Of a stretch of DNA of 64,000 nt, positions 1 through 13,162 are shown in pieces. Positions within the stretch are counted from its first letter, which is position 1. Every line of letters starts with the position of its first letter. The notes below the pieces were generated by a model, which saw nothing but the letters and a program-made list of their open reading frames with translations, was not told where the DNA came from and ran no database searches. The stretch spans positions 124,001 to 188,000 of the forward strand of contig NZ_LQRT01000013.1 in the NCBI RefSeq assembly GCF_001632745.1. The letters run 5' to 3'. The translations under genes were made by a program, and so were the position numbers. This stretch comes from Aquimarina aggregata. Its GTDB lineage: Bacteria > Bacteroidota > Bacteroidia > Flavobacteriales > Flavobacteriaceae.

Positions 1-98
1 TTGTTCTGACTAGAATCCGTACATCATGTTTTAAAAAAATTGAAGATAGAAAAATCGGATTAAAAGAAATATTACAATTGACTTGTAAAAGATCATAG
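1..98 (+). CDS. Possible C-terminal end of an upstream gene (partial)
   Basis: One frame is open from the window edge to a TAG at 96-98, giving about 31 residues rich in Lys, Arg and Ile. It could be the tail of a protein that begins outside the window, perhaps a regulator of the quinone reductase that follows. There are no recognisable motifs, and a stop-free stretch this short can occur by chance in AT-rich DNA, so the call is weak. Confidence 0.25.
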   Translation, partial: VLTRIRTSCFKKIEDRKIGLKEILQLTCKRS

Positions 99-130
99 TT
101 CTTATAACCCCCCATTAATTATGCTTTAAG

Positions 131-736
131 ATGAATGTTTTAATTATATATTGTCACCCAAGTAAAAAATCTTACACGCATCAAATTCTACAACAATTAA
201 AAAAGGTTTTGAAAAACGAAAGTATAAAATTCGAAATTTCGGATTTGTATGAAATGAACTTTCAAACAGAAATGACAGAACAGGAGTATATGCGAGAAGG
301 ACTTCTTAATTTGGATTTACCCATCCCTGAAGATGTACAAAAAGAACAAGAAAAAATTGAAAATGCTGATTGTATAATTTTCTTATATCCCGTGTGGTGG
401 AGTGATTGCCCGGCCAAATTAAAAGGTTGGTTTGATAGAGTTTATACAGTTGGATATGCTTACGGGTATGACAAAGCCGAAAAAGAAAATAAAAAAATGA
501 AAACTGTTAAATATGGTATTTCTTTATGTACTGCGGGGCATCCAAATATGTTTTTAGACGAAATCGGAATCGCTGAAAGCATGAGGAATATTATGATTGA
601 TGACAGATTAGGGCAACGATTCAGTAATAAAGAGCTAATAATTTTAGGTGGAACTTTGGATAGAAAAAAAGTAGAGAAAGACCACTCTAAAATTGTTAAA
701 AGCATTCCTAAACGTATAAAAAAATACTGTGCCTAA
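131..736 (+). CDS. NAD(P)H:quinone oxidoreductase, flavodoxin-2 fold
   Basis: This is a 201-residue cytoplasmic flavoprotein of the NQO1/MdaB/KefF type, expected to reduce quinones by two electrons using NAD(P)H. The N-terminal MNVLIIYCHPSKKSYT is the phosphate-binding beta1-loop of the flavodoxin-like fold. Around residues 88-111, the segment YPVWWSDCPAKLKGWFDRV is the family signature for flavin binding and the dimer interface. An ATG start follows an A/T-rich leader. The gene stands alone, with 515 non-coding bases after it. The family is clear, but the physiological substrate cannot be read from sequence; azo-dye or nitro reduction are alternatives. Confidence 0.87.
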   Translation: MNVLIIYCHPSKKSYTHQILQQLKKVLKNESIKFEISDLYEMNFQTEMTEQEYMREGLLNLDLPIPEDVQKEQEKIENADCIIFLYPVWWSDCPAKLKGWFDRVYTVGYAYGYDKAEKENKKMKTVKYGISLCTAGHPNMFLDEIGIAESMRNIMIDDRLGQRFSNKELIILGGTLDRKKVEKDHSKIVKSIPKRIKKYCA

Positions 737-796
737 AAACATAAATTGATGAATAACAACAAATGATTATTACCTACTGAAATACCATAATTAATT

Positions 797-862
797 TTTA
801 ATATAAAATCACTAGAATAAAGAAAAGGCAATTGTCATTCAATTAACAGGCACATCCGAATA
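797..862 (+). pseudogene. Degenerate relic of a Crp/Fnr regulator gene
   Basis: Bases 811-833 match 3057-3079 of the intact Crp/Fnr gene exactly over 23 nt. Weaker similarity continues on both sides to about 797 and 862, including the downstream ATCCGAATA. Frameshifts and substitutions remove any reading frame. The relic precedes the 1047-1154 repeat in the same order as the intact crp gene precedes the 3652-3759 repeat. It therefore looks like what is left of an older duplicated crp-plus-regulatory block. Confidence 0.7.
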
Positions 863-1050
863 ACTACACTATGGTGTAAAATGTACAATACCTTTTTTTA
901 GATCTATCTCCCCTCTCCTAGTCTATTTTTACCAACAAATCCTTTTGAATATTCATAAACACCCTTAAATACCACAATATGTTCTAAACTTTATGTTTAG
1001 GTATTTCTTCAGGGTCTATAAGCATACTATTTTCACGTTCATATATAAAA

Positions 1051-1064
1051 TTGATATAGATCAA
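1051..1064. promoter_or_regulatory. Perfect Fnr/Crp-type operator
   Basis: TTGATATAGATCAA is an exact TTGAT-N4-ATCAA palindrome, the consensus of the FNR/DNR branch of the Crp superfamily. Two Crp/Fnr proteins are encoded within 8 kb (2964 and 8946) and are the obvious candidates to bind it. The target gene would be the ZIP transporter. Confidence 0.65.
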
Positions 1065-1073
1065 TTTTACTTC

Positions 1074-1087
1074 TTGATAGAAGTCAA
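1074..1087. promoter_or_regulatory. Second Fnr/Crp-like operator
   Basis: TTGATAGAAGTCAA differs from the TTGAT-N4-ATCAA consensus at one position of the right arm. Its centre is 23 bp from the perfect site, about two helical turns, so two dimers could bind one face of the DNA. The equivalent site in the second repeat (3679-3692) is conserved. Confidence 0.45.
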
Positions 1088-1179
1088 GCTTTTTTCTTAG
1101 CACAGGTCATATTAATCTCATCATATATGACGCAACTTTGTAATGTAAATAATTGATAAATCTAGTGTACGGTTTATTT

Positions 1180-1200
1180 GACTATTAGTTATATAAAACT
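1180..1200 (+). repeat. Short upstream repeat, copy 1 (before ZIP gene)
   Basis: This 21-nt element matches 4671-4691 at 19 of 21 positions by hand count. Each copy lies about 50 nt before a start codon (ZIP at 1252, the DUF6503-like gene at 4747) and is followed by an A-rich leader. It may be promoter or 5'-UTR sequence that was duplicated together with the 108-bp repeat. Confidence 0.5.
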
Positions 1201-1251
1201 AAAGCCTAATCTTTAAAAAAATAAAATAAAACCAAAATAAATAATATCCTC

Positions 1252-1926
1252 ATGAATAAGTATTTACTCCCAGTTATAGCCATTGTTGTTGGTGTTATTA
1301 TTGCTTTTATTACCAAAAAGCAAAAATCAATAGGCACTAAACTCTTATTAGCATTTAGTGGTGCATTTCTATTAGCATTAGCACTTTTTGATCTATTGCC
1401 AGAAGTATATCATCATTTAGACGGCAAGCAAACCGGACTTTTTATAATGTGCGGTATCTTATTGCAAATTGTTTTAGAATTTTTCTCTAAGGGTGTCGAG
1501 CATGGTCATGAACATATACAAAAAGAAGGTAAAGAGTTTCCGTGGGTACTATTTATAAGTCTTTGCATTCATAGTTTTTTAGAAGGGTTTCCTATTCATC
1601 AACACAATGATATGGTGTATGGCATACTGATTCATAAAATTCCGATAGCAGCCTTAATAACTACATTTTTACTTCAATCTAGTTATAATAAAACTCAAAT
1701 TATTGGATTCTTGGTAGTATTTGCTGTAATGACACCTCTAGGTACTTACATATCAAATAATACAGTCTTAGCTACCGAACATATTGATATTGTTAATGCG
1801 ATAGTCATCGGTATCTTTTTACATATTGCTACAACTATTCTATTTGAAACTAGTGAAGGCCATAAATTTAATTTATCCAAGCTGGTAGTGGTATGTTTGG
1901 GTATTTCGATTGCTCATTTTATCTAA
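1252..1926 (+). CDS. ZIP-family divalent metal transporter
   Basis: This 224-residue protein consists almost entirely of membrane segments, about seven to eight of them. A histidine-rich cytoplasmic loop (EHGHEHIQKEGK, about residues 83-94) precedes the family signature: HSFLEGF in TM4 and IHKIPIAA in TM5. These supply the metal-binding His and Glu of ZIP transporters, which move Zn2+, Fe2+ or Mn2+ into the cytoplasm. It is a little short for the family but complete. The upstream Fnr-type operators suggest redox or anaerobic control. The metal carried cannot be decided from sequence. Confidence 0.88.
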   Translation: MNKYLLPVIAIVVGVIIAFITKKQKSIGTKLLLAFSGAFLLALALFDLLPEVYHHLDGKQTGLFIMCGILLQIVLEFFSKGVEHGHEHIQKEGKEFPWVLFISLCIHSFLEGFPIHQHNDMVYGILIHKIPIAALITTFLLQSSYNKTQIIGFLVVFAVMTPLGTYISNNTVLATEHIDIVNAIVIGIFLHIATTILFETSEGHKFNLSKLVVVCLGISIAHFI

Positions 1927-2171
1927 ATATTCCAAAAAAAAGAATCAAGACAAATGTAGTAAGAGCTCTGGATTAACTTTAGAAAACCATTTTCCAAGAA
2001 AAATGGCTATTATACGCCACTATACTTAAAGAAGTTCCTTTCAAATTTCGTTTTTATACTAGCTTACAAGTTTTCTATTTGACTTGTATTTCATAAATTT
2101 AGGTGTACAAAAAAACAATTCATCGTACATTAACAAGTTCTAGGGTATTCTCGAAATTTAAAACAAGTAAA

Positions 2172-2705
2172 ATGACAGAAATTGAAATGCTAAGTAAGCA
2201 AACCCATGATACATATCAATGGATATACAACCTTATAGATTCAATACCCGAAGAAAAGTGGAATGAAACTCCTGAAGTATTAGAATCTAATGTCACTTGG
2301 CAAGTAGGGCATTTAATAATTAGTATTTATTATCATTCAATTCTTGTAGTTAAAGGACATCAAAAAGATGTTTTAAAACTAGTTCCTATTAAGAAATACT
2401 CTGATTTGTATACCTTCTATTCTTCGCCTAGAAATTCTACTGGAAAATTTAGTTTAAGAGAATTAAAAAATCATCTTGATATTATTGTTAAGAAGTCAAT
2501 TGAAATAATAAACTCATTAGCTCCTGAAGAACTTAAAAATGAATTGGTACCCGGAAAAGTAGAACATCCTGTTGCCAAAACCAAGTTTGAAGCAATAGAT
2601 TGGAACATTAAACATACAATGTGGCATTGTGGACAGCTTGCTAGTTTAAAAAGAATATTAGGAAATCCCTACCAGTTTGAAATAAAGAAAGTCGAGAAAA
2701 TGTAA
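2172..2705 (+). CDS. DinB-family (four-helix metal-binding) protein
   Basis: This protein belongs to the DinB/YfiT-like four-helix family, whose members use three histidines to hold a metal ion; some are thiol transferases or DNA-damage-induced proteins. The segment TWQVGHLIISIYYHS and the later HTMWHCGQLASLKR provide the expected histidines. I start at ATG 2172 (MTEIEMLSKQ), after an A-rich leader. The frame is open back to a GTG at 2103, but those extra 23 residues are basic and unlike the family. The exact activity is unknown. Confidence 0.8.
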   Translation: MTEIEMLSKQTHDTYQWIYNLIDSIPEEKWNETPEVLESNVTWQVGHLIISIYYHSILVVKGHQKDVLKLVPIKKYSDLYTFYSSPRNSTGKFSLRELKNHLDIIVKKSIEIINSLAPEELKNELVPGKVEHPVAKTKFEAIDWNIKHTMWHCGQLASLKRILGNPYQFEIKKVEKM

Positions 2706-2963
2706 ATTAAAAACTCTTCTAAAAATAATAGAATTTACATAGCTATCCATAGAAAAAAAATGATGTTAGAAAGTGTGCAGCATTTTATGAGTATCCAGAA
2801 AAACTGCACACAACAACATAAAAAACAAATATTAGATTGTAATAATCATATCGGATTTCCCTTGAAATACCTAGAGGTTCTTCTCTTTTTGCTATCTTTA
2901 TTTCTTAAATACTACACATAATAAATAAAGACGTTATTGGCAAGAGTCAAAAAACACGAATCG

Positions 2964-3539
2964 ATGAGTATATACAAAGGAATATTGGATAACATAGCCA
3001 GATATGTGAAACTAACAGATGATGAAATTAATGAGTTTACTTCCATATTAAAAACTACTAGAATAAAGAAAAGGCAATTTGTTATTCAACCTGGGTTTGT
3101 ATCCGAATATCGAAATTATATTGTAGAAGGTGCAGTCCGGGTTTTTTATTTGGATGACCTTGGTAAAGAGCATACCGTAAGTATTGGAATCGAGGATTGG
3201 TTTTTTACAGACTTTCACAGTTATTTAAATAGAACTCCTGCAGAATATTATGCCGAAGCTCTTGAAGATTCTCTGATTTTACAAATGAAATATGAAGATG
3301 TTGAAGAACTTTGTAGTAGAATACACCCTTTATGTCAGTATTTTAGATTGTATATAGAAAGAGCCTTATCTTATTCTAACACGAGAGTTATTTCAAATAT
3401 TAGTAAAACCTCAGAGGAACGATACTGGGAGTACGTTAATAAATATCCTCAAATAGCAAATCGAATACCACAGTATGTCTTAGCATCCTATTTAGGAATT
3501 TCACCAGAATCTATAAGCAGAATACGTTCGCGCTCTTAA
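2964..3539 (+). CDS. Crp/Fnr-family transcriptional regulator (paralogue A)
   Basis: This cytoplasmic regulator has an N-terminal cyclic-nucleotide-binding-like beta-roll (about residues 20-120) and a C-terminal winged helix ending in YLGISPESISRIRSRS, the DNA-recognition region. No Cys cluster typical of an FNR [4Fe-4S] sensor is present. Paralogue B at 8946 is nearly identical over most of its length, and a relic of a third copy lies at 797-862. I use ATG 2964; an in-frame TTG at 2937 is possible and a matching TTG exists in paralogue B. The Fnr-type operators at 1051 and 3656 are plausible targets. Confidence 0.88.
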   Translation: MSIYKGILDNIARYVKLTDDEINEFTSILKTTRIKKRQFVIQPGFVSEYRNYIVEGAVRVFYLDDLGKEHTVSIGIEDWFFTDFHSYLNRTPAEYYAEALEDSLILQMKYEDVEELCSRIHPLCQYFRLYIERALSYSNTRVISNISKTSEERYWEYVNKYPQIANRIPQYVLASYLGISPESISRIRSRS

Positions 3540-3655
3540 GTTAAAAATCTATGTGGTAATCCCACAACACATCAAACAGATTCTTCATTTTTAAACTCTT
3601 CGACTTTTTACTAGAGCCGCAAACTTTAGGGTTTTAAACCTTCTAAGAATAAAAA

Positions 3656-3669
3656 TTGATCTAGATCAA
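3656..3669. promoter_or_regulatory. Perfect Fnr/Crp-type operator
   Basis: TTGATCTAGATCAA is a perfect TTGAT-N4-ATCAA palindrome and is symmetric through the spacer as well. It lies directly downstream of Crp/Fnr paralogue A and upstream of the peroxiredoxin-like gene, so this protein could control the next gene. Confidence 0.65.
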
Positions 3670-3678
3670 TTTTACTCC

Positions 3679-3692
3679 TTGATAGAGGTCAA
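3679..3692. promoter_or_regulatory. Second Fnr/Crp-like operator
   Basis: TTGATAGAGGTCAA has one change from consensus in the right arm. It is centred 23 bp from the perfect site, the same spacing as in the first repeat. Confidence 0.45.
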
Positions 3693-3953
3693 GCTTTTTT
3701 CTTAACACACGTCATATTAATCTCTTCACATATGACGCAACTTTGTAATGTTAATAATTAACAAATAGATCATGAAAAATGGAGGCTTCATAAAAGTAAA
3801 GTTTTGAAGCACCAACTAGGAACAAATTTCTCCTGATAATCGAGTAATCTTTGATCAAATGAAAAATCATTTGGTAAAGTTCCCAAGATCGAAAATGTAA
3901 AAGCATTCCCTTTATAAGGGCTTACTATATTTTTTAATATAAAAGAATTAATA

Positions 3954-4616
3954 ATGAAAACTATGACAATTCCTTCCTATCGAGAAGGTTTAAAGGAATT
4001 AAAAGAAAATACATCACGGATGCTTTCTGCTCATGCAGGTGACGTATTTAATTTAGATGCCGAAGGATTAAGAAAAGAACACACTTCTATTTTAAAACTT
4101 CAGGTTGGAGAAAAAGCCCCAAATTTTACACTATTAAATACATTTAATGAATGCATTAACCTTTATAACGTTTTACAAACCAAAAGAGTTGTTCTTACTT
4201 TTTATAGAGGTACTTGGTGTCCTTATTGTAATTTAATATTGAGCCAGTATCAGACTGTTCTTCCAGAAATAGAGAAAGCAGGAGCTACACTAATCGCTAT
4301 TTCTCCGCAAACACCAGACGAATCTTTGAATATAAAAGAGAAAAATGCATTACAATTTGAAGTCTTAAGTGATAATGGGAATATCGTGTCTAAAGAATTT
4401 ACAACTATCCATAAAAATCCTAAAAAATCATTAGATAAAATGACCGAATTGGGATACAATTACGATAGTTATTATTCTGATGAAGGAAGTGCAATTCCTA
4501 TTCCTGCAACATTTATCATCGAAAAAAATGGAACAGTTTCTTTTACAAAAACTGAAGGTGGTGATTATAGAAATCGTGTTGAATCGTCGGATATCATTGC
4601 TGCTTTAAATAAATAA
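3954..4616 (+). CDS. Peroxiredoxin-like AhpC/TSA-family protein
   Basis: This 220-residue thioredoxin-fold protein is probably a thiol peroxidase. The active-site segment FYRGTWCPYCN places cysteines at residues 89 and 92 in a CxxC arrangement typical of the peroxiredoxin-like 2 group. The region before residue 50 is a helical extension, and IPIPATFIIEKNG near the C-terminus carries the cis-proline. There is no signal peptide, so it should be cytoplasmic. Fnr-like operators and a 195-nt structured leader lie upstream. Its substrate (H2O2, organic peroxide or protein disulfide) is not resolved. Confidence 0.87.
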   Translation: MKTMTIPSYREGLKELKENTSRMLSAHAGDVFNLDAEGLRKEHTSILKLQVGEKAPNFTLLNTFNECINLYNVLQTKRVVLTFYRGTWCPYCNLILSQYQTVLPEIEKAGATLIAISPQTPDESLNIKEKNALQFEVLSDNGNIVSKEFTTIHKNPKKSLDKMTELGYNYDSYYSDEGSAIPIPATFIIEKNGTVSFTKTEGGDYRNRVESSDIIAALNK

Positions 4617-4670
4617 TAAATGTTCTAGTCAACATCCCAGGATAACTAAAATATGGTTTGAAGTTTACCC

Positions 4671-4691
4671 GACCATTAGTTCTATAAAACT
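4671..4691 (+). repeat. Short upstream repeat, copy 2
   Basis: This is the partner of 1180-1200, with 19 of 21 positions identical, located 55 nt before the start of the DUF6503-like gene and followed by an A-rich leader. It may be a promoter or leader element. Confidence 0.5.
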
Positions 4692-4746
4692 TAATAACAA
4701 TCTATTTTAAAAATAAAACAAAGTAAAAACAAGTAAATAATTTATC

Positions 4747-5532
4747 ATGAAAAAAATAATCTTTAAAACCCTCCAATTCGTATTAATTACGTTCATAACT
4801 ACGCTCCAAGCACAAGAAGCTAAACAACTTATTAGTAAAGTAGTAGAAGCTAATGGCGGCAAGAATACTTTACACAAATTAAAAGATGTATCCTTCGATT
4901 ACACCTTCAAGGTTAAAGATAACAATGTAGTAGATGTTTCCAAAGAACGGTACATTTTTGATGGCGAAGTTTCTTATGCAGCATATACAAAAAGACAGGT
5001 TTATGCACTACCTCAAATCCCTGGTAAAACATACACACAGTTCTTTAATGGTAACAATTCTGTTTCTAAAATAAATGGAAAGACTATCACAGAGCAACAA
5101 CCTGCATTTATTGGTCATATCCTTAGAAAAACAAACTATTACTGGTTTACAATGATGTTCAAGTTATTAGATCCAGGTGTAAACCATAAAATTCTGACCC
5201 CTAGAACTGTAGACGGAATAACTTACAAGATCGTTGAGATGACCTTTGGAGATAACGTAGGAGAATCAAGCAAGGATAAATACATTTTATACATCAATCC
5301 AAAAACATATAGGATAGATCAATTTCTATACAACGCTACGGGATTTGGTGTAACTGAACCAAGTATAATGAAAGTGACGTATGAGAAAATAGAAGGTATC
5401 TATTTATCTACCTATCGTAAATATGCACCTGCTGATTGGGATGGCAATAAACTAAAAGGCTCATGGACAGAACAATTCACCAAGAATGTAAAGTTTAACA
5501 ACGGATACAATTTAGAAAACATTCAGAGTTAA
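4747..5532 (+). CDS. Secreted DUF6503-like protein (LolA/LppX-like fold)
   Basis: This is a 261-residue exported protein with a clear Sec signal peptide (MKKIIFKTLQFVLITFITTLQAQ) and cleavage after LQA. The mature part resembles Bacteroidota proteins of the outer-membrane-lipoprotein-sorting type. These have a half-barrel built from repeated beta-strands, with an early ANGGKNTLHKLKD helix and YILYINPKTYRIDQF strands. The family usually holds lipid or acyl groups in the periplasm, but no specific role is known. It sits between redox genes and shares an upstream element with the ZIP gene. Confidence 0.65.
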   Translation: MKKIIFKTLQFVLITFITTLQAQEAKQLISKVVEANGGKNTLHKLKDVSFDYTFKVKDNNVVDVSKERYIFDGEVSYAAYTKRQVYALPQIPGKTYTQFFNGNNSVSKINGKTITEQQPAFIGHILRKTNYYWFTMMFKLLDPGVNHKILTPRTVDGITYKIVEMTFGDNVGESSKDKYILYINPKTYRIDQFLYNATGFGVTEPSIMKVTYEKIEGIYLSTYRKYAPADWDGNKLKGSWTEQFTKNVKFNNGYNLENIQS

Positions 5533-5698
5533 CCCCTTTAATTCTGTTATATCTCGACACTATACTAAAAGATGAGTACTGCGTAAACATAGTTTGCGGC
5601 AAAGTCGATTTATAACTTTTAACAATAGAAAATTCTATAAAAAGAAAAAAAATAAAAACAGAGTAAAAACAAATTAAAAACAAATTAAAAAATTTATT

Positions 5699-6778
5699 AT
5701 GAAAGCAGTTGTATATAAAGAAAGAGCACAAATTGAGGTCGTTGATATACCAAAACCTCAATTATTAAAAGACGATGATGTTATCGTACGTATTACACTA
5801 GCAGGTGTATGCGGAGCAGATTTAGAATTTACGCAAAACGGACCTGAAATGGGTTTATACAAAGGAATGCGAATAGGTCATGAATTTGTAGGTGTAGTAG
5901 ACCAAGTTGGTAAAGATATTCATTCCTTAAAAGTTGGAGACCGGGTCATAGCTTCTGCTATGTTTATCGACGGAGATTGTTACTATTGTAAACGTGATTT
6001 ACCTTCTGCATGTGATCATGGAGGTTTATTTGGGACACCTCTTTTTGCCGAGCATGGAGGGGATGATATCCAAGGAGGCCAAGCTGAATTTATACGTGTC
6101 CCTTATGGTAACTCAACACTATTTAAACTTCCAGAAGGTCTAACTGGAGATGAGTATGACACTAAGGTTCTTCCACTTGGAGATAATTTTGCCACAGGTT
6201 ATCATGGTGCATTAAATGCTAATATTAAAACAGGAGAAACTGTCGTAGTTATAGGTGATGGTGCGGTAGGACTAAGCGCAGTAATGGCAGCTACGTTATT
6301 TGGACCTTCTACTATTATTCTTGTAGGCCGTCATGATAGTCGATTAGAATTAGCTAAAACTATTGGAGCAACCCACGTAGTGAACTCAAAAAATGAAGAT
6401 CCTGTAGCATTTGTGAAATCACTTACAGAAGGAAGAGGAGCAAATTCTGTTATTGATTCTGTTGGTAATAAAACAGCAATTGCACAAGGTATGGAAATGA
6501 CTCAGGCCGGAGCATCGATTAGTGTTCTAGGATTTGGTCATCTTTATGAACCAGTTGAGCAGCCTTATTCTTCAGCCCTATTTAGAAATATAACGATTCA
6601 TACTGGTGTTGTAAATGTAGCAGCTTATATGAAAAAGTTACTTCCTATTGTAGAAAGAGGTGTGATTGATCCTAGTAAGATTTTTACTGATATTTTACCC
6701 CTTTCTGAGGCAGAAAAAGGATATGATTTAATGCGTGATCGTTCATCAGGAACACTTAAAGTAGCATTACGTCCATAA
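5699..6778 (+). CDS. Zinc-dependent alcohol dehydrogenase, MDR family
   Basis: This 359-residue cytoplasmic NAD(P)-dependent dehydrogenase belongs to the medium-chain superfamily. Cys38 and His61-Glu62 (GHEFVG) are the catalytic zinc ligands. Cys94, Cys97 and Cys105 form the structural-zinc lobe, with an Asp at the remaining cysteine position. The Rossmann motif VIGDGAVGLSA binds the dinucleotide. It is full length. A strong terminator follows at 6818-6861. The alcohol or aldehyde used cannot be predicted, but its place next to a peroxiredoxin and a quinone reductase suggests aldehyde or redox detoxification. Confidence 0.9.
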   Translation: MKAVVYKERAQIEVVDIPKPQLLKDDDVIVRITLAGVCGADLEFTQNGPEMGLYKGMRIGHEFVGVVDQVGKDIHSLKVGDRVIASAMFIDGDCYYCKRDLPSACDHGGLFGTPLFAEHGGDDIQGGQAEFIRVPYGNSTLFKLPEGLTGDEYDTKVLPLGDNFATGYHGALNANIKTGETVVVIGDGAVGLSAVMAATLFGPSTIILVGRHDSRLELAKTIGATHVVNSKNEDPVAFVKSLTEGRGANSVIDSVGNKTAIAQGMEMTQAGASISVLGFGHLYEPVEQPYSSALFRNITIHTGVVNVAAYMKKLLPIVERGVIDPSKIFTDILPLSEAEKGYDLMRDRSSGTLKVALRP

Positions 6779-6817
6779 CATTCTTTGTAATAGAAAGTAA
6801 AGTTGTACCAAAATTTA

Positions 6818-6861
6818 TGTGTCGAAAAAGGTTTAAAAAAATCTTTTTTGACACATTTTTT
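6818..6861 (+). terminator. Intrinsic terminator after alcohol dehydrogenase
   Basis: A 13-bp stem pairs TGTGTCGAAAAAG (6818-6830) with CTTTTTTGACACA (6843-6855), including one G-T pair and a 12-nt loop, and is followed by six T residues. It ends transcription 40 bases after the dehydrogenase stop. Confidence 0.8.
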
Positions 6862-6957
6862 ATCAAAAAAATTATCTGGTATAAACGGTACTAATTCTTC
6901 TTTTTATTACTCGATCAAAGAACAATTTTAAAAATTACAAACTAAGAATATAAAAAC

Positions 6958-7434
6958 ATGAAAACATTATTTTTAAGTGTATTAGCAGGGCTTTTATTAG
7001 TCTCTTGTACAAATAAGCAAACAACAGAACAAAGAAAACAGGAAGAAACCAATTTAATGGAAACCAGCCGCAAATGGTCTAAAGCATTTTCTACTGAAAA
7101 GTATTTTAGTTTTATCGGCGAAGATGGTATTATGATGGCTCCGGATCAACCTCTTTTACAAGGTCATGAAAAAATTAGAAACGTATTAGAACAATTTCAA
7201 TCACTACCTGGTTTTAACGTTACTTGGGAACCACAAGAAGTATTTGTATCTAATAGCGGAGATTTAGGGTATACTATAGATAAAATGTTGGTGAATTTTG
7301 ATGATACAGATGGCAATACAGTAAATCAATTTGAAAAAGTTGTTTCTATTTGGAAAAAAGACAAAAATGGTGAGTGGAAAATGGCTGTAGACATTTGGAA
7401 TGCAGATCCTACTCTAACATCTATCAATAAATAG
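6958..7434 (+). CDS. DUF4440/SnoaL-like lipoprotein
   Basis: This 158-residue lipoprotein has signal and lipobox LLLVSC with lipidated Cys17. The mature part is a small alpha+beta cone of the NTF2/SnoaL type: an N-terminal helix with ETSRKWSKAFSTE, then a YTIDKMLVNF strand and an EKVVSIWKKDKNGEWKMAVDIWN hairpin. Such domains often bind small hydrophobic ligands or act as isomerase-like enzymes. The following DUF2911 gene is on the same strand 150 bases away. Its function is unknown. Confidence 0.75.
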   Translation: MKTLFLSVLAGLLLVSCTNKQTTEQRKQEETNLMETSRKWSKAFSTEKYFSFIGEDGIMMAPDQPLLQGHEKIRNVLEQFQSLPGFNVTWEPQEVFVSNSGDLGYTIDKMLVNFDDTDGNTVNQFEKVVSIWKKDKNGEWKMAVDIWNADPTLTSINK

Positions 7435-7532
7435 GTATCATAAGAATATCTAATTACAGTGTCTTATACACCAAAATTTAATGAATTTACTTTAATAAGG
7501 GTCACAAAACCCGTAAAAGCAGCTCATTAATC

Positions 7533-7598
7533 ATAAAAAAACATGTTACTTCTCTTTTAATAATAACCATTCTTATTTTTTTAGTATGTCAAACTTAA
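7533..7598 (+). other. Out-of-frame signal peptide joined by a TTTTTTA heptamer
   Basis: The frame starting at 7533 (ATA, not ATG) reads KKHVTSLLIITILIF and stops at 7596-7598, just after the start of the DUF2911 frame. A -1 shift at TTTTTTA (7577-7583) would fuse it to SMSNLRAQITLP and give a normal Sec signal peptide with an RA/Q cleavage site. One lost T in the T7 run explains this equally well. Both the missing ATG and the missing base suggest decay, but programmed slippage cannot be excluded. Confidence 0.55.
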
Positions 7599-8641
7599 GA
7601 GCCCAAATCACCCTACCTACCTCAAGTCCAGAAGCAGAGGTCAGCCAACGTATAGGGATTACCGATATTACAATTCATTACAACAGGCCATACGTTAAAG
7701 GCAGAAAAATCTGGGGTAATTTGGTACCATATGGATTTAATTATTTAGGTTTTGGAACTGCCAAAGCCGCACCTTGGAGGGCTGGGTCAGACTATAACAC
7801 AACGATCGATTTCTCACACGAGGTAAGTATACAGGGTCATAAAGTTCCTGCAGGAAAATATGCTTTATTTATAGCACCTGAAGAAAATGGAGAAGTGATT
7901 ATTATCTTATCATCCAATACTTCTTCATGGGGTTCTTATTATTACGATGAAAAAGAAGATATCCTTCGCTTTAAAGTTACTTCTATAGATAAAACTACAT
8001 CTACTGAAATGTTGACTTATAGTTTTGATTTTGTAGAACCTACTAGTGCTACAGTTTCTTTACATTGGAGTACCAAAGAGATACCCTTTAAAATAGATGT
8101 AGCAGTTGATAAAATTGTAATAGCAGGAATTAGTAACGATTTAAGGAATCCAAAAGGATTTCAACAATCTACTTGGGATAGTGCCGCAAATTATGCTTTT
8201 AGTATTGGTGAATTAGATCAAGCGCTGCAATGGATTAATGCATCTATTGAAGGTAACTTTTTCAGTAAAGAAACATTTATAAATCTTTCTTTAAAATCTA
8301 AGATTTTAGAAAAACAAGGAAAAACTACTGAAGCAAAGCATATACTACAAAGAGCCATCCCATTAGGAAACCCAGATGAACTTTATAGATTAGGCTTAGG
8401 TCTCATCGCAGATGGCCAATTAGACAAAGCACTCGAAATCATGCAAGCAAATGTCAAAAATAATGATGGAGCTTTTCCAAGTCATTATGGATTGGCTAGG
8501 GCTTTTTCAGCGAAAAACGATTTCAAAAATGCATTGATAGCGTTGGAAAAAACAGGAGCCGATACTCCTGCTCATTTCAAGCCTAGATTTGCAAAATACA
8601 AAGCGCAACTCAAAAAAGAAGAGGATATTAATCCTGCATAA
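7586..8641 (+). CDS. DUF2911-domain protein with TPR-like C-terminus
   Basis: This 351-residue protein begins its DUF2911 domain almost at once (PSSPEAEVSQRIG-like start, then HYNRPYVKGRKIWG and PWRAGSDYNTTIDFSHEV, to about residue 150). The second half contains helical repeat segments (DQALQWINASIEG, DKALEIMQANVKN) resembling tetratricopeptide repeats. The family is normally exported, yet this ATG omits the signal peptide, which lies upstream in another frame. As drawn, the product would be cytoplasmic unless a frameshift restores export. The domain's role is not known. Confidence 0.75.
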   Translation: MSNLRAQITLPTSSPEAEVSQRIGITDITIHYNRPYVKGRKIWGNLVPYGFNYLGFGTAKAAPWRAGSDYNTTIDFSHEVSIQGHKVPAGKYALFIAPEENGEVIIILSSNTSSWGSYYYDEKEDILRFKVTSIDKTTSTEMLTYSFDFVEPTSATVSLHWSTKEIPFKIDVAVDKIVIAGISNDLRNPKGFQQSTWDSAANYAFSIGELDQALQWINASIEGNFFSKETFINLSLKSKILEKQGKTTEAKHILQRAIPLGNPDELYRLGLGLIADGQLDKALEIMQANVKNNDGAFPSHYGLARAFSAKNDFKNALIALEKTGADTPAHFKPRFAKYKAQLKKEEDINPA

Positions 8642-8945
8642 CTCCTATTCAATATCATGAAAATGAACAATTTTGCCCAAACTAATGGTTTTTAGATATG
8701 AAAAAAAAAATCAATGTATAGACTTACTAGCAAACAGAGTTACGGTAATGTGATACTGTAAGAGTATGAATTAAAACAATCATATAACCTATACTATTAA
8801 TCCCATTTGTTATAATCGTGTAATGAAATAAGAATAAAATTAAGTTTGTTACTCTTCAAGAAGTATTTGCTAAATTAGTTCATGAAATGTAAGATAAAAT
8901 CACGTCTTAACACATTATTGACGATTGGCAAAAAAACACACACCA

Positions 8946-9521
8946 ATGAGTAAATACAAAGGAATATTGGATAACATCGCCCGATATGTTACACTATCAG
9001 ATGATGAAATAAAAGAGTTTACCTCTATATTAAAAACGACCAGAATAAAGAAAAGGCAATTTGTTGTTCAACCAGGCTTTATATCTGAATATCAGAACTA
9101 TATAGTAGAAGGTGCAGTCAGAGTTTTTTATTTAGATGACCTTGGAAAAGAGCATACTATAATTATTGGAATCGAAGATTGGTTTTTTTCAGATTTTTAT
9201 AGTTATGTACATAGAACTCCTGCAGAATATTACGCTGAAGCACTTGAGGACTCTTTAATTCTACAAATGAAATACGAAGATGTTGAAGAGCTTTGCAACA
9301 GAATACATCCTATATGCCAATATTTTAGATTGTTAATACAAAAAGGGTTTGCCTATTCTCATAAAAGAACCATTTCCAATATCAGTAAAACTTCAGAAGA
9401 GCGATATTGGGAGTACGTTGATAAATATCCACAAATTGCAAATAGAGTACCGCAGTATGTATTAGCCTCATATTTAGGGATTTCTCCAGAATCAATCAGC
9501 AGAATCCGTTCGCGCTCATAA
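8946..9521 (+). CDS. Crp/Fnr-family transcriptional regulator (paralogue B)
   Basis: This is a close paralogue of the gene at 2964, with the same length and nearly the same sequence throughout the beta-roll and winged helix (YVLASYLGISPESISRIRSRS-type end). Most of the changes fall around residues 75-115 and 115-130, the effector-binding and dimer region, so ligand response may differ while DNA binding is shared. I use ATG 8946; an in-frame TTG at 8925 aligns with the TTG before paralogue A. No Fnr-type palindrome follows this copy. Confidence 0.88.
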   Translation: MSKYKGILDNIARYVTLSDDEIKEFTSILKTTRIKKRQFVVQPGFISEYQNYIVEGAVRVFYLDDLGKEHTIIIGIEDWFFSDFYSYVHRTPAEYYAEALEDSLILQMKYEDVEELCNRIHPICQYFRLLIQKGFAYSHKRTISNISKTSEERYWEYVDKYPQIANRVPQYVLASYLGISPESISRIRSRS

Positions 9522-9757
9522 ATAATATGATAATGAATACATAACTACTTTCTGTTATTGTCATTATCGCAGCTCAGTGATGAATTGAATGATTGTTGTA
9601 TTTTTGGTAAGATGTGACATTCGAATTGGTACAGCAAACAATGAATGTTCAAGAAAAATTAAAAAATAAAGTATTATTTTGCCTTAATACGCATCTATGT
9701 TAAACGATGTATATCATAACAGAAAAAGACTAACCAAATCATAACTTTAAACAATAA

Positions 9758-10294
9758 ATGCCTGAACTTATAAAATATCGTGAGAAACTAAATATTACCC
9801 AAGAAGAACTTGCTGAAAAATCGGGAATATCTGTGAGAACGATACAGAGAATTGAGGCTGGAGCTAAACTAAAAGGACATACTTTAAATGCTATTGCTAA
9901 AGCATTACAAATTAGTAAAGAAGAGTTAATTAAAGAAAAGAGTGAAGAGACCTCTAATTATAAGCTTATGAAATTGATTAACATTTCCTCTTTACCTTTC
10001 GTTGTGGTTCCCTTTCTAAACATATTTGTTCCAGTTGCTATTATTTATGCAAAAAAGGAGTATAATTCATTAACAAAACAAATTGTTTCGATTCAAATAA
10101 TGTGGACTATTATTTCGGGTTTTCTTTTTTTATTGAGCCCTTTTTTCAATAGAATATTCACATCAGAAATTAGACTTGTTTTACCAGTTTTGATAGTTTC
10201 TGTCTTGGTAAATATTATAATCATCTTAGTAAATACTATAGCATTAGACAAAAACAAAAAACTTCGTATCAAATTGAAATTCAGCTTGATATAA
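9758..10294 (+). CDS. XRE-family HTH protein with C-terminal membrane segments
   Basis: This 178-residue protein has an N-terminal Cro/C1 helix-turn-helix (YREKLNITQEELAEKSGISV to about residue 60), followed by a linker and three hydrophobic segments (about 73-95, 108-128, 138-160). The layout is that of membrane-anchored XRE regulators common in Bacteroidota, related in form to DUF4870 fusions. No partner toxin or adjacent operon is seen. The DNA target and stimulus are unknown. Confidence 0.8.
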   Translation: MPELIKYREKLNITQEELAEKSGISVRTIQRIEAGAKLKGHTLNAIAKALQISKEELIKEKSEETSNYKLMKLINISSLPFVVVPFLNIFVPVAIIYAKKEYNSLTKQIVSIQIMWTIISGFLFLLSPFFNRIFTSEIRLVLPVLIVSVLVNIIIILVNTIALDKNKKLRIKLKFSLI

Positions 10295-10401
10295 AAAATG
10301 TCGGGAATTTGGCGGGATTTTATCGGGGTGTTTTCGTGTTGATTCGTTTTTAAATTATAGAGTATTGCATCATTGTTAAACTAAAAATAAAATCAATAAC
10401 A

Positions 10402-11913
10402 ATGAAGCAATTCAATCTACTTATTTTCACAATTTTAATTCTTTTTTCGAAAAACATTCAATCACAGATTTCTAAAAGCTCAACACTTTTTAAGGACTTA
10501 AAAAGTGTTGATAGTTTATTCTTTAATGAAGGCTTTAACAAATGTAATTTTCAAATACTCGAAAAATATATTCCATCAGATTTTGAGTTTTATCATGATG
10601 AAAATGGTGTGCAAAACAGGGAACAGTTTCTAAAAGGGTTTAAAGAAAGTATTTGTTCAAATACTGAAAAGAAGCCAATCAGAAAAGTGGTTAACGAGAG
10701 TCTCCAAGTTTTTAGGTTAAAAAATAATGGAGAGACATATGGAGCCATTCAAAAAGGTGTTCATCTATTTTACATCAAAGAACCCAATAAACAGCTCTAT
10801 CTTACCAATATAGCAAAATTCACATCTGTCTGGAATATCCAAAATGGGCAATGGAAACTATCTAGAGTTTTAAGTTATGATCACAAAGAACCAAAAACAG
10901 ATTATGGATCAGGTTTTAATGCTAATTACCCAATGCCGTTATTTGAGAATGATAAAGAAATAGGTACACTATTAAAAAAACATAAAATACCATCTATATC
11001 TGTTGGCTTAATCGAACAGGGTAAAGTGAGTCAAATAAGAACCTTTGGTTTTCAAAAAGATACCATAAAAGCTGGAATCAATAGTATCTATAAAGTTGCT
11101 TCATTGACTAAACCTGTTTTTGCTAATGTGGTATTAAAACTCGTAGATATGAATAAACTAAAACTTGACGAACCCTTATCTAAATACTATGTGGATAACG
11201 ACTTAAAAGGACATCGGTTTTTGAATAAACTAACCGCACGCAACATACTAACTCATCAATCAGGTTTACCTAACTGGAGGTATTTAACCAAAACTAAAAA
11301 ATTAAGCTTTTTAAGAGAGCCAGGTATCAAATGGGAGTATTCCGGAGAAGGGTTTGAATATTTGCGAAAAGCCATTGAAAGTAAATTACAAAAACCTCTA
11401 GAAGTAATAGCACAAGAATTACTGTTCATACCTTTAGAAATGAGCAATACTTCATTTTATTGGACATCTGATATTAAAGAAGACCAATACGCCGTAGAAC
11501 ACAATGAAAATGGTAAAAAGATCAACTTTGAAAAACATACTAAAACCAATGCTGCAGCAAACTTATTAACAACTACAGAAGATTATTCTAAATTTTTAGT
11601 TCATCTTTTAAACGGTGCAGGTATTTCTAGAGAATTATATCAAGAATTTATCAAGCCACATTCTAAAGAAAAAGAGGGTATTTTTTGGGGCCTAGGAATA
11701 CAAATATTACCTAACTTAAACAAAAACGAAACTGTATTAATGCATACCGGAGGAGATTACGGAACCAAAACACTTGCCATTGCTTCACTAAAATCGAAAA
11801 AAGGTTTAGTTGTATTTGCAAATTCTGAAAACGGAATGGTTTTATGGAATAAATTGTTAAATGAATATTTACCAAGTTTTGGAGCCGAAATTATGAGTAG
11901 AAATATGAAATAA
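10402..11913 (+). CDS. Class-C beta-lactamase-like serine hydrolase with SnoaL-type N-domain
   Basis: This 503-residue exported protein has a signal peptide ending near IQSQ. Residues 30-160 form a DUF4440/NTF2-like domain. The rest is a penicillin-binding-protein-like hydrolase with SxxK at 234-237 (SLTK), Tyr313 in EYSGEGF and HTGG at 448-451. These make the acyl-serine catalytic centre, probably facing the periplasm. Family members act as esterases, D-amino peptidases or lactamases, and this sequence does not show which. The N-terminal fusion is common in Flavobacteria. Confidence 0.85.
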   Translation: MKQFNLLIFTILILFSKNIQSQISKSSTLFKDLKSVDSLFFNEGFNKCNFQILEKYIPSDFEFYHDENGVQNREQFLKGFKESICSNTEKKPIRKVVNESLQVFRLKNNGETYGAIQKGVHLFYIKEPNKQLYLTNIAKFTSVWNIQNGQWKLSRVLSYDHKEPKTDYGSGFNANYPMPLFENDKEIGTLLKKHKIPSISVGLIEQGKVSQIRTFGFQKDTIKAGINSIYKVASLTKPVFANVVLKLVDMNKLKLDEPLSKYYVDNDLKGHRFLNKLTARNILTHQSGLPNWRYLTKTKKLSFLREPGIKWEYSGEGFEYLRKAIESKLQKPLEVIAQELLFIPLEMSNTSFYWTSDIKEDQYAVEHNENGKKINFEKHTKTNAAANLLTTTEDYSKFLVHLLNGAGISRELYQEFIKPHSKEKEGIFWGLGIQILPNLNKNETVLMHTGGDYGTKTLAIASLKSKKGLVVFANSENGMVLWNKLLNEYLPSFGAEIMSRNMK

Positions 11914-12220
11914 AAACATCATACGGTATACAACAATTTATTTATCCACCCTTCAGGAAGTAAAAGCAATACACAAGAAATGTTGTGTATTACATCTGAA
12001 CTTAAAAAACGAAACTGTATGAAAACTACAAGGCAGATATTTCTTTGGGGGATATACTGATTACGGAAACATTTATGCCTGAAAAAGTATCTATAAAACA
12101 AATTAATCCATATTAATAAACAAGATAAAAAGACTTAGGAAAATTATTTTACCTTGTATTCAAAATTACTTGAGACAGTATATAGCCAATAAACTATGAT
12201 TCGTAATATGTGTTATTATT
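11914..12220 (+). other. Intergenic stretch without a supported gene
   Basis: There are no convincing codons here. A short open tail ends at 12112-12114 (LITETFMPEKVSIKQINPY). Together with a short match to the hydrolase upstream (ACGAAACTGTAT at about 12009-12020), it hints at a decayed duplicate of the hydrolase 3' end, but the similarity is too weak to call. Confidence 0.3.
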
Positions 12221-12355
12221 ATGAATTATCGGTTTAACAAAAAATTTAAAGTATATAGACCAAATCAAAAAGATATAACTAAGGGTTTAATTATAAGTTC
12301 ACTACTTTTAATTTTCTTAACAGTTGTTGTCTATGGTAATATTCAAATTCAATAA
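12221..12355 (+). CDS. Small single-pass membrane protein (44 aa)
   Basis: The ATG at 12221 opens a 44-codon frame that ends 3 bases before the AraC gene. The product has a basic N-terminus (MNYRFNKKFKVYRPNQK), one hydrophobic segment (GLIISSLLLIFLTVVVYG, about residues 22-39) and a short polar tail. Tight coupling to the regulator suggests co-transcription. No family was recognised, and a chance ORF is possible. Confidence 0.4.
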   Translation: MNYRFNKKFKVYRPNQKDITKGLIISSLLLIFLTVVVYGNIQIQ

Positions 12356-12358
12356 AAA

Positions 12359-13162
12359 ATGAAAATATTAACTAAAGGCACCTATTATGGAGCGATGCAT
12401 GCCGAGCAGCAGATGAATGGCGTCTTATTTTCAGAATACGATTACCTGACAGATAAAACTGATTGGCACTTTCATGAGAACCCTTATTTCATGTATCTTC
12501 TTCAAGGTAATTTATATGATGTAAATAAGAGATGTAAAACCACATGTCCTTCAGGGAGTTTTTTACTTCATAATTGGCAAGAACCTCATTTTAACTCAAA
12601 AGCGTCAACTCAAGCTAGAGGGTTTCATATTGAATTTGAAAAGAGCTGGTTTGAAAAGAATAATATAGATATTGATCTTTGGGAAGGTAGTAAACTTATA
12701 AAAAACCCTAAATCACATCATATATTGGCGAAGATTTATGCTGAATTTAAATATGCCGATGTTTATTCTGAAATCTCCTGTGAACTCTTAGTATCAGAGT
12801 TATGTGAAAACATAGAAAAAGAACAGATTTATTTGTTTGAAGAAAACCCGTCTTGGCTTACAGCTCTTATTGAAATTATTCATCTACACAATGAACCGTT
12901 CGATTTAAAATCTCTTTCTCAACAGTTAGGAATACATCCCGGACATTTATCAAGAGCTATCCCAAAATATTTCTCAACAACTTTAGGTGATTATATCCGA
13001 CAAGTTAAGGTAAAAAGGGCAATCGATCTTATGCTCTATTCTACTACTTCGCTTTCTGCTATTTCCTATGAATGTGGATTTTCAGACCAAAGTCACTTTT
13101 CAAGAACTTTCAAAAGATATATGGCAATGACGCCAAGAGAATTTTATAAAAAATGTCGTTGA
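12359..13162 (+). CDS. AraC-family transcriptional regulator
   Basis: This 267-residue regulator has an N-terminal cupin-like sensor (about residues 20-115; WHFHENPYFMYLLQG, SFLLHNWQEPHFN) and a C-terminal pair of helix-turn-helix motifs. The second ends with the signature ISYECGFSDQSHFSRTFKRYMAMTPREFYK. It would bind a small ligand and DNA. It lies directly before a serine hydrolase gene on the same strand (72-base gap), which may be its target, though autoregulation is equally likely. Confidence 0.88.
   Translation: MKILTKGTYYGAMHAEQQMNGVLFSEYDYLTDKTDWHFHENPYFMYLLQGNLYDVNKRCKTTCPSGSFLLHNWQEPHFNSKASTQARGFHIEFEKSWFEKNNIDIDLWEGSKLIKNPKSHHILAKIYAEFKYADVYSEISCELLVSELCENIEKEQIYLFEENPSWLTALIEIIHLHNEPFDLKSLSQQLGIHPGHLSRAIPKYFSTTLGDYIRQVKVKRAIDLMLYSTTSLSAISYECGFSDQSHFSRTFKRYMAMTPREFYKKCR

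Follow-up and report, generated by a model that had tools for sequence, protein, structure and literature searches.

The 64,000-nt stretch of Aquimarina aggregata DNA analysed here (contig NZ_LQRT01000013.1, positions 124,001 to 188,000; hereafter the window) contains two nearly identical non-coding blocks of 108 bp, one before a ZIP metal transporter gene and one before a peroxiredoxin-like gene. As judged by comparison with related sequences, these blocks are most probably class II-like promoters with three tandem operators, activated by an adjacent Crp/Fnr-type regulator. We also favour, with less confidence, a wider reading, in which the members of a large family of Crp/Fnr paralogues in the Bacteroidota are self-contained regulator-plus-class-II-promoter cassettes, each serving one stress or detoxification gene through a private operator at -41.5 and a readable helix code. 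The window would then hold a derived, three-operator form, in which additional genes acquired a copy of the promoter and the promoter persisted after the loss of its own regulator copy.

The two blocks (1047-1154 and 3652-3759) aligned without gaps and with exactly 8 mismatches over 108 positions, as a first-pass annotation of the window had counted by hand. In a local alignment, the similarity stretched 7 bp to the right of these ends and then stopped. All the elements that the annotation had listed were present in both copies: a perfect TTGAT-N4-ATCAA palindrome (TTGATATAGATCAA at 1051 and TTGATCTAGATCAA at 3656), a near-site (TTGATAGA[A/G]GTCAA) beginning exactly 23 bp downstream of the palindrome's first base, and a GTCATAT/ATATGAC pair. 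A third, degenerate operator-like copy followed after another 23-bp step in both blocks, and the GTCATAT arm overlapped its right half-site.

A search of the 6.19-Mb genome with the block, which had been proposed as a check, returned two copies only (E 6.7e-51 and 9.1e-40); a third match was the reverse-strand palindrome of block 2 and not a new copy. Model R1 gave 126 matches in the window, with no convincing block besides the two; the next-best matches were reverse-strand palindromes (E 0.0003 and 0.005), and the others had E values of 0.03 or worse. Plasmid and phage collections contained no match to the block. A mobile or interspersed repeat was ruled out by the two genome copies and the lack of plasmid and phage matches, and the same results dispose of the possibility, raised in the first-pass annotation, of a widespread repeat unrelated to promoters. 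The genome scan for TTGATN4ATCAA that it had also suggested gave 87 occurrences, compared with 27 for a reversed-pattern control; taken alone, the plain palindrome is weak evidence.

The surroundings of the blocks had been described as otherwise dissimilar intergenic DNA. The blocks do repeat, but to the left of block 1 lie the decayed remains of a copy of the regulator A gene, the intact Crp/Fnr gene found left of block 2; block 2 begins 112 bp past the stop of this intact gene. Using blastn, remnant positions 805-842 matched 3051-3089 (90%) and 968-1043 matched 3464-3538 (74%). A gapped alignment could be followed in register along the whole gene, across large deletions, and ended at the start of block 1; tblastn recovered weak fragments (KTTRIKKRQF, IPQYVL and LGIS..SIS, in two frames, E 0.03-0.1). 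A ZIP-linked block in genome G024 also had weak regulator remnants just upstream (best E 5e-4). The best reading is that block 1 arose from a duplicated regulator-promoter unit, in which the regulator copy would have decayed while the promoter was kept, now to be served in trans. The position of block 1 behind a duplicated, decayed gene would also suit a recent segmental duplication without function, kept by its recency. However, the regulator copy has been shortened by about half, whereas the adjoining block has no indels and 8 substitutions (93% conserved), and the block is conserved between genera with its half-sites kept and its cores variable. We therefore regard mere recency as hardly credible.

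To define the conservation of the block, we used 29 loci found in a collection of named genomes, 23 of which carried a close orthologue of the regulator (80-93% identity). Directly behind the regulator, 21 of the 23 had the block (matching at 94-108 of 108 positions), which began anywhere from 7 bases before the final base of the regulator reading frame to 5 bases past it. These 21 loci come from Flavobacteriaceae, one Fulvivirga and one Saprospiraceae bin; Allomuricauda, Winogradskyella, Flagellimonas, Dokdonia, Kordia, Psychroserpens, Croceitalea and Aquimarina are among the genera represented. Regulators at five loci were 60-71% identical and had a different helix, EFLSK; TTGAACTAGTTCAA was found behind the regulator in three of them, and in a fourth it lay ahead of a peroxiredoxin gene close by. 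The blocks of four same-genus genomes (L037-L040) read as those of the Aquimarina loci L054, L065, L064 and L060 when 115 bases were compared by eye. A sequence-only model of 27 blocks matched (E<=0.001) in 18 of 66 genomes of the same genus and 25 of 397 of the same family; weaker matches were mostly related architectures behind other Crp/Fnr genes, and some were apparently due to chance. One three-site, block-like promoter (L123, G024:C1:4691931-4692034, E 5.8e-15) precedes a gene of another kind (~304 aa); a further Crp/Fnr paralogue lies some 3 kb away.

Family matches (PF02535 and PF00578) bore out the ZIP and peroxiredoxin-like genes named by the first-pass annotation, and both kinds of gene are also found behind some relatives' blocks. 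Partners outside the window were counted for 26 distinct blocks (30 rows minus 4 duplicates) as the nearest codirectional gene resembling any of 12 window proteins. Alcohol dehydrogenase was the partner in 19 cases, ZIP in three and peroxiredoxin in three (379 nt off in L044), with none in one.

The anatomy of the promoter was read from 27 aligned blocks. Conserved dyads occupy columns 5-18, 28-41 and 51-64, spaced 23 bp, and the mean column identity of the half-sites (97, 96 and 89% for operators 1, 2 and 3, respectively) exceeds that of the cores (69, 66 and 77%). A linker, GCTTTTTTC, is conserved at 92%, and a -7 box, CAACTTTG, at columns 87-94 has 97% mean column identity. The corresponding box of Flavobacterium psychrophilum, TAnnTTTG, spans -12 to -5 according to the available part of its promoter study (PMC9723704). 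Transfer of this position to the blocks places +1 at column 99 and the operator centres at -87.5, -64.5 and -41.5. Class II activation is characterised by an operator centred at -41.5 and spaced constantly from the -7 box; operator 3 would occupy this position if the published -7 location holds here.

We examined whether the same geometry occurs behind other Crp/Fnr paralogues. The discovery set of 124 loci from 17 genomes was chosen by hand, mostly from the stronger rows among the matches listed (L035, from the window's own genome, was too long and was left out), and contained 98 paralogues after removal of those at least 85% alike over the C-terminal 150 residues. A paralogue was scored as positive when a perfect 5-4-5 palindrome started exactly 40 nt before TTTG, between -30 and +230 of the regulator stop. 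This was so for 29 of the 98, compared with a mean of 0.28 (maximum 3) in 60 dinucleotide shuffles and 0-4 at other offsets. Because the offset had been found by scanning, post hoc among 41 offsets and with several thresholds, the test was repeated with the offset fixed beforehand on 108 loci from other genomes of the phylum (G000, G463 and the weakest rows left out; 103 after filtering against both sets). G192 and G381 in this replication set had already appeared in the earlier census with the 27-block model. Seventeen of the 103 were positive (shuffles: mean 0.22, maximum 1 in 60; other offsets 0-3). On the upstream side of the regulators, where autoregulatory operators would lie, offset 40 was found in 0/98 and 1/103 codirectional and in 2/98 and 3/103 divergent cases. 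Both strands of the window contained four palindromes at offset 40 among 1097 TTTG, and one to three at offsets 38, 39, 41 and 42, a background of 0.008 per 260-nt strand or about 0.8 expected in 98 stretches. The A of TAnnTTTG, which lay outside the selection criteria, was present in 27/28 discovery cases (L155 left out for its distance from the stop) and 15/17 replication cases. With the transferred start, offset 40 equals exactly -41.5. The window's own block is outside the 29 because its operator at this place is degenerate.

Forty-one of 44 such operators precede a codirectional open reading frame (ORF) of at least 60 aa within 110 nt, a count made without a control. Many of the 44 pairs involve related regulators, so these counts are not independent events, a limit shared by the 29/98 and 17/103 above. 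Read by eye from the ORF starts, with no family scan, several products resemble AhpD-like (CxxC), short-chain dehydrogenase, YceI-like and DinB-like proteins. At five loci (L177, L274, L302, L305 and L316), regulators with an EYxSE helix stand before TTAAA-N4-TTTAA operators and small proteins with RASQINGCAxC (AhpD-like by eye). Scanning the genome for TTGATN4ATCAA-N15..37-TTTG gave 30 matches, only one of which had the 26-bp gap, behind its own regulator on C7; a broad TTGAT class II regulon is thus not claimed.

We propose that each block is a sigma-A-type promoter under regulator A and probably also under its paralogue B, which has the same helix. Three regulator dimers would line up at 23-bp intervals, centred near -41.5 (the weak site), -64.5 and -87.5. 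The dimer at -41.5 would contact RNA polymerase in the manner known from class II CRP/FNR promoters, and the two upstream dimers would strengthen it or cooperate with it. Activation is the predicted sign, which nothing in the sequence fixes, and detoxification-type genes such as these targets are often derepressed. The regulator might instead be a repressor, whose bound sites obstruct the polymerase or the -33 region until stress relieves them. However, the operator lies at -41.5 with a fixed -7 spacing in two sets, which is class II geometry, the -7 box is not overlapped, and the spacer at the expected -33 TTTG is T-rich without a G consensus. Repression is therefore the less likely sign, with perhaps a modest chance of being right.

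To analyse the relation between recognition helices and operators, we used 44 of 46 regulator-operator pairs, leaving out L155 and L318 for their distance from the stop. Helix and operator distances were correlated (Mantel r 0.33; p 0.0002, the lowest value that 5000 permutations allow), also when the rest of the protein was controlled for (partial r 0.29, p 0.0002). The first 28 pairs alone (of 29; L155, whose EYVSE helix goes with CTTAT and whose operator lies at 171 nt from the stop, was left out) gave a partial r of 0.285 (p 0.010). The helix (P/L/Q)ETLSR occurred with TTGAT (ten) or TTGAC (two) in 12/12 cases, EYxSE with TTAAA in 5/5, PEFxSK with TTAAT in 3/3, (H/A)EFxSK with TTGAA in 6/6, VHLSR with ATAAC in 2/2 and SSLSR with TTGCC in 2/2; three cases of (P/Q)QSLSR had three different half-sites. 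Arg at the last helix position went with G at base 3 in 16/23 cases, versus 6/21 otherwise (Fisher p 0.015). Among regulators sharing under 45% identity when the last 50 residues are disregarded, those with the same helix differed by 0.54 half-site bases (74 pairs) and the others by 1.88 (851 pairs). The regulator A helix, SPESISR, resembles TPESLSR (found with ATGAT) and APESLSR (TTAAC/GTCAA, in a looser list), and such helices would fit the block half-sites. Two regulators with an RETLSR helix (L024 and L174) are followed by CRP-like GTGAT-N4-(A/G)TCAC sites.

The genome holds 17 matches to regulator A, itself counted, some with similar helices, and TTGAT-type sites suit several of them. A different Crp/Fnr paralogue, or a factor of another family, could hence act on the block, the linkage to A and B being historical. 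This is improbable, since the operator varies with the helix of the adjacent regulator and since, in different orders, the block remains only a few bases from the stop of the regulator.

Regulators A and B matched the cyclic-nucleotide-binding-like N-terminal domain PF00027 (35.0 and 32.3 bits; cut-off 27.5). No Pfam helix-turn-helix family matched them at E 0.001; the alignment to PDB 3dn7 passes through the recognition helix, and the ExxS(R/K) motif is present. Oxygen sensing by E. coli Fnr uses an N-terminal 4Fe-4S cysteine cluster. No such cluster was found among 30 regulator sequences (four near-duplicates), in which only C117 (30/30) and C124 (20/30) recur. The missing cysteines and a PRK11161 (FNR) score of 19.2 bits, against a cut-off of 228, speak against an E. 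coli-type Fnr oxygen sensor; a cAMP-dependent CRP is likewise not supported, at 22.1 bits for PRK11753, where 266 are needed. The invariant C117 may matter for the regulator.

The first-pass annotation had placed the consensus in the Fnr/DNR branch of Crp-type regulators and proposed that the linked Crp/Fnr paralogues control a small redox/metal regulon. Selected Fnr-type operators, most simply read by the linked paralogues, are consistent with this proposal; an oxygen/NO physiology of the Fnr/DNR type is not supported, given the missing cluster and the low FNR and CRP scores. The annotation had missed the regulator remnant at block 1, operator 3, the -7 box, the most frequent partner gene (alcohol dehydrogenase) and the architecture shared with other paralogues. 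The predicted targets are the ZIP transporter, the peroxiredoxin-like gene and, in most relatives, alcohol dehydrogenase. These functions suggest redox or reactive-electrophile stress as the probable signal, together with metal supply.

A further alternative is that the conserved stretch works mainly as RNA, either a leader or a small RNA. In relatives, a TGTCAATAATTGACA-type palindrome starts no more than 1 base from the predicted +1; block 2 keeps it as TGTTAATAATTAACA, with both sides changed (3749-3763), and block 1 does not. It could form a 5'-terminal hairpin or be a further operator. Some single leader folds are stable (L047, L054 and L064 at -18 to -23 kcal/mol), compared with -7.1 for the ZIP leader of the window. 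However, conservation lies mostly upstream of the predicted start and drops soon after it, and Rfam at gathering scores gave no match in window positions 1-12500. RNAalifold on 20 leaders recovered only the 5' hairpin, weakly (consensus fold -2.4 kcal/mol, double changes in 1/6 pairs), and did not recover a second hairpin of some single folds. A mainly RNA-based function is thus very improbable. The ZIP leader (1172-1259) and the DUF6503 leader (4663-4754) are 73% alike. Several relatives' alcohol dehydrogenase leaders have a common GTTTTAT...ATAAAAC inverted repeat, which forms a long hairpin in some single folds.

In the regulator tree, A belongs to an eight-member clade that includes Allomuricauda and Flagellimonas (support 0.92), and B groups with Kordia and the Saprospiraceae bin (0.96). 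Their placement away from the named Aquimarina sequences suggests that the regulator unit may have spread horizontally.

Several observations weigh against the promoter reading and its extension to other paralogues. Operator 3, at the proposed activating position, is the least palindromic of the three (1-3 of 5 pairs), and the start site is borrowed from a different genus. The block is absent at L045, one of the close orthologues; at another, L048, the copy behind the regulator is degraded, with an intact one before its ZIP gene. At the offset-40 place, 69/98 and 86/103 paralogues have no perfect operator. A tandem half-site scan of the 98 paralogues without the TTTG anchor gave no 23-bp signal, and a tandem pair in register occurred in 4/98 only, the window's own included; tandem sites are confined to a few lineages and are not family-wide. 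L143 and L067 depart from the helix code, with PEFLSK near TTGAACTAGTTCAA (TTGAA instead of TTAAT). The features of the window are listed below. In addition, a 32-bp self-complementary stretch (94%) lies at 10480-10511, near the start of an ORF at 10402.

Table. Features of the window, with the basis of each assignment; operator centres and start sites are predictions.
Feature	Position	Strand	Basis or remark
Decayed Crp/Fnr gene, 3' end abutting block 1	737..1046	+	blastn and gapped alignment to the 2964-3539 gene
Block 1, putative promoter module before ZIP gene	1047..1158	+	27-row alignments A1/A2; model R1 99.5 bits (row used in building R1)
Operator 1, block 1, predicted centre -87.5	1051..1064	+	27-block conservation
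Operator 2, block 1, predicted centre -64.5	1074..1087	+	27-block conservation
Operator 3, block 1 (degenerate), predicted centre -41.5	1097..1110	+	27-block conservation; TTTG offset as in the general operator
-7 box, block 1, predicted +1 at 1145	1133..1140	+	27-block conservation; TAnnTTTG in PMC9723704 (available part)
Palindrome at predicted +1, possible 5' hairpin	1144..1158	+	relatives' blocks; broken in block 1
ZIP metal transporter, proposed target of block 1	1252..1926	+	PF02535, 65.8 bits
Crp/Fnr-type regulator A, proposed binder of both blocks	2964..3539	+	PF00027; PDB 3dn7 (alignment A3); helix SPESISR
Block 2, putative promoter module before peroxiredoxin gene	3652..3763	+	8/108-mismatch repeat; model R1 105.5 bits (row used in building R1)
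Operator 1, block 2	3656..3669	+	repeat alignment and conservation
Operator 2, block 2	3679..3692	+	repeat alignment and conservation
Operator 3, block 2, predicted centre -41.5	3702..3715	+	27-block alignment
-7 box, block 2, predicted +1 at 3750	3738..3745	+	27-block alignment; geometry of PMC9723704 (available part)
Peroxiredoxin-like (AhpC/TSA), proposed target of block 2	3954..4616	+	PF00578
DUF6503 gene	4747..5532	+	family match; next after peroxiredoxin gene here and in L044, L055, L068, L070
Zinc-type alcohol dehydrogenase	5699..6778	+	PF08240/PF00107; in other genomes, blocks are most often followed by its homologue
Crp/Fnr-type regulator B	8946..9521	+	86% identity to A, with which it shares the recognition helix; not followed by a block

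Since Bacteroidota promoters differ from those of E. coli, little has been mapped of how transcription is activated in this phylum. The fixed distance between operator and -7 box would let operator, start site and target be predicted from sequence for many paralogues. The 44 natural helix-operator pairs constitute a testable code and are candidate orthogonal regulator-promoter pairs for Bacteroidota. A regulator-plus-triple-operator architecture was not found in the titles and abstract openings of the literature searched, mostly without subscription journals.

Class II CRP/FNR promoters of E. coli also have a 14-bp dyad with 5-bp half-sites, TTGAT/ATCAA and, with the transferred start, the same centre at -41.5. 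The blocks differ from them in their TAnnTTTG-type -7 box, in the degenerate proximal site with two stronger ones at 23-bp steps, and in having the regulator gene directly upstream of the target promoter. Flavobacterial sigma-A promoters have the same TAnnTTTG box at -12 to -5, and the main text of their description does not contain the words crp, fnr or palindrom (PMC9723704). The cyclic nucleotide binding regulatory protein of PDB 3dn7 aligns over residues 5-190 of the 191 of the regulator (E 2.4e-43), but its helix, TPEYLSE, is of the type paired here with TTAAA operators. In the available part of the study of HcpR, HcpR2 and DNR, these regulators likewise use FNR-like dyads, a correlation of helix and operator is known for such CRP/FNR members (residues 180/181 with operator bases), and HcpR2 lies beside its target hcp, as the regulator does here; they are, however, other regulators with other targets (hcp, denitrification), and no fixed -41.5 position or triple operator is described there (PMC1274295). 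The blocks represent a familiar type of switch whose parts are arranged in a new way.

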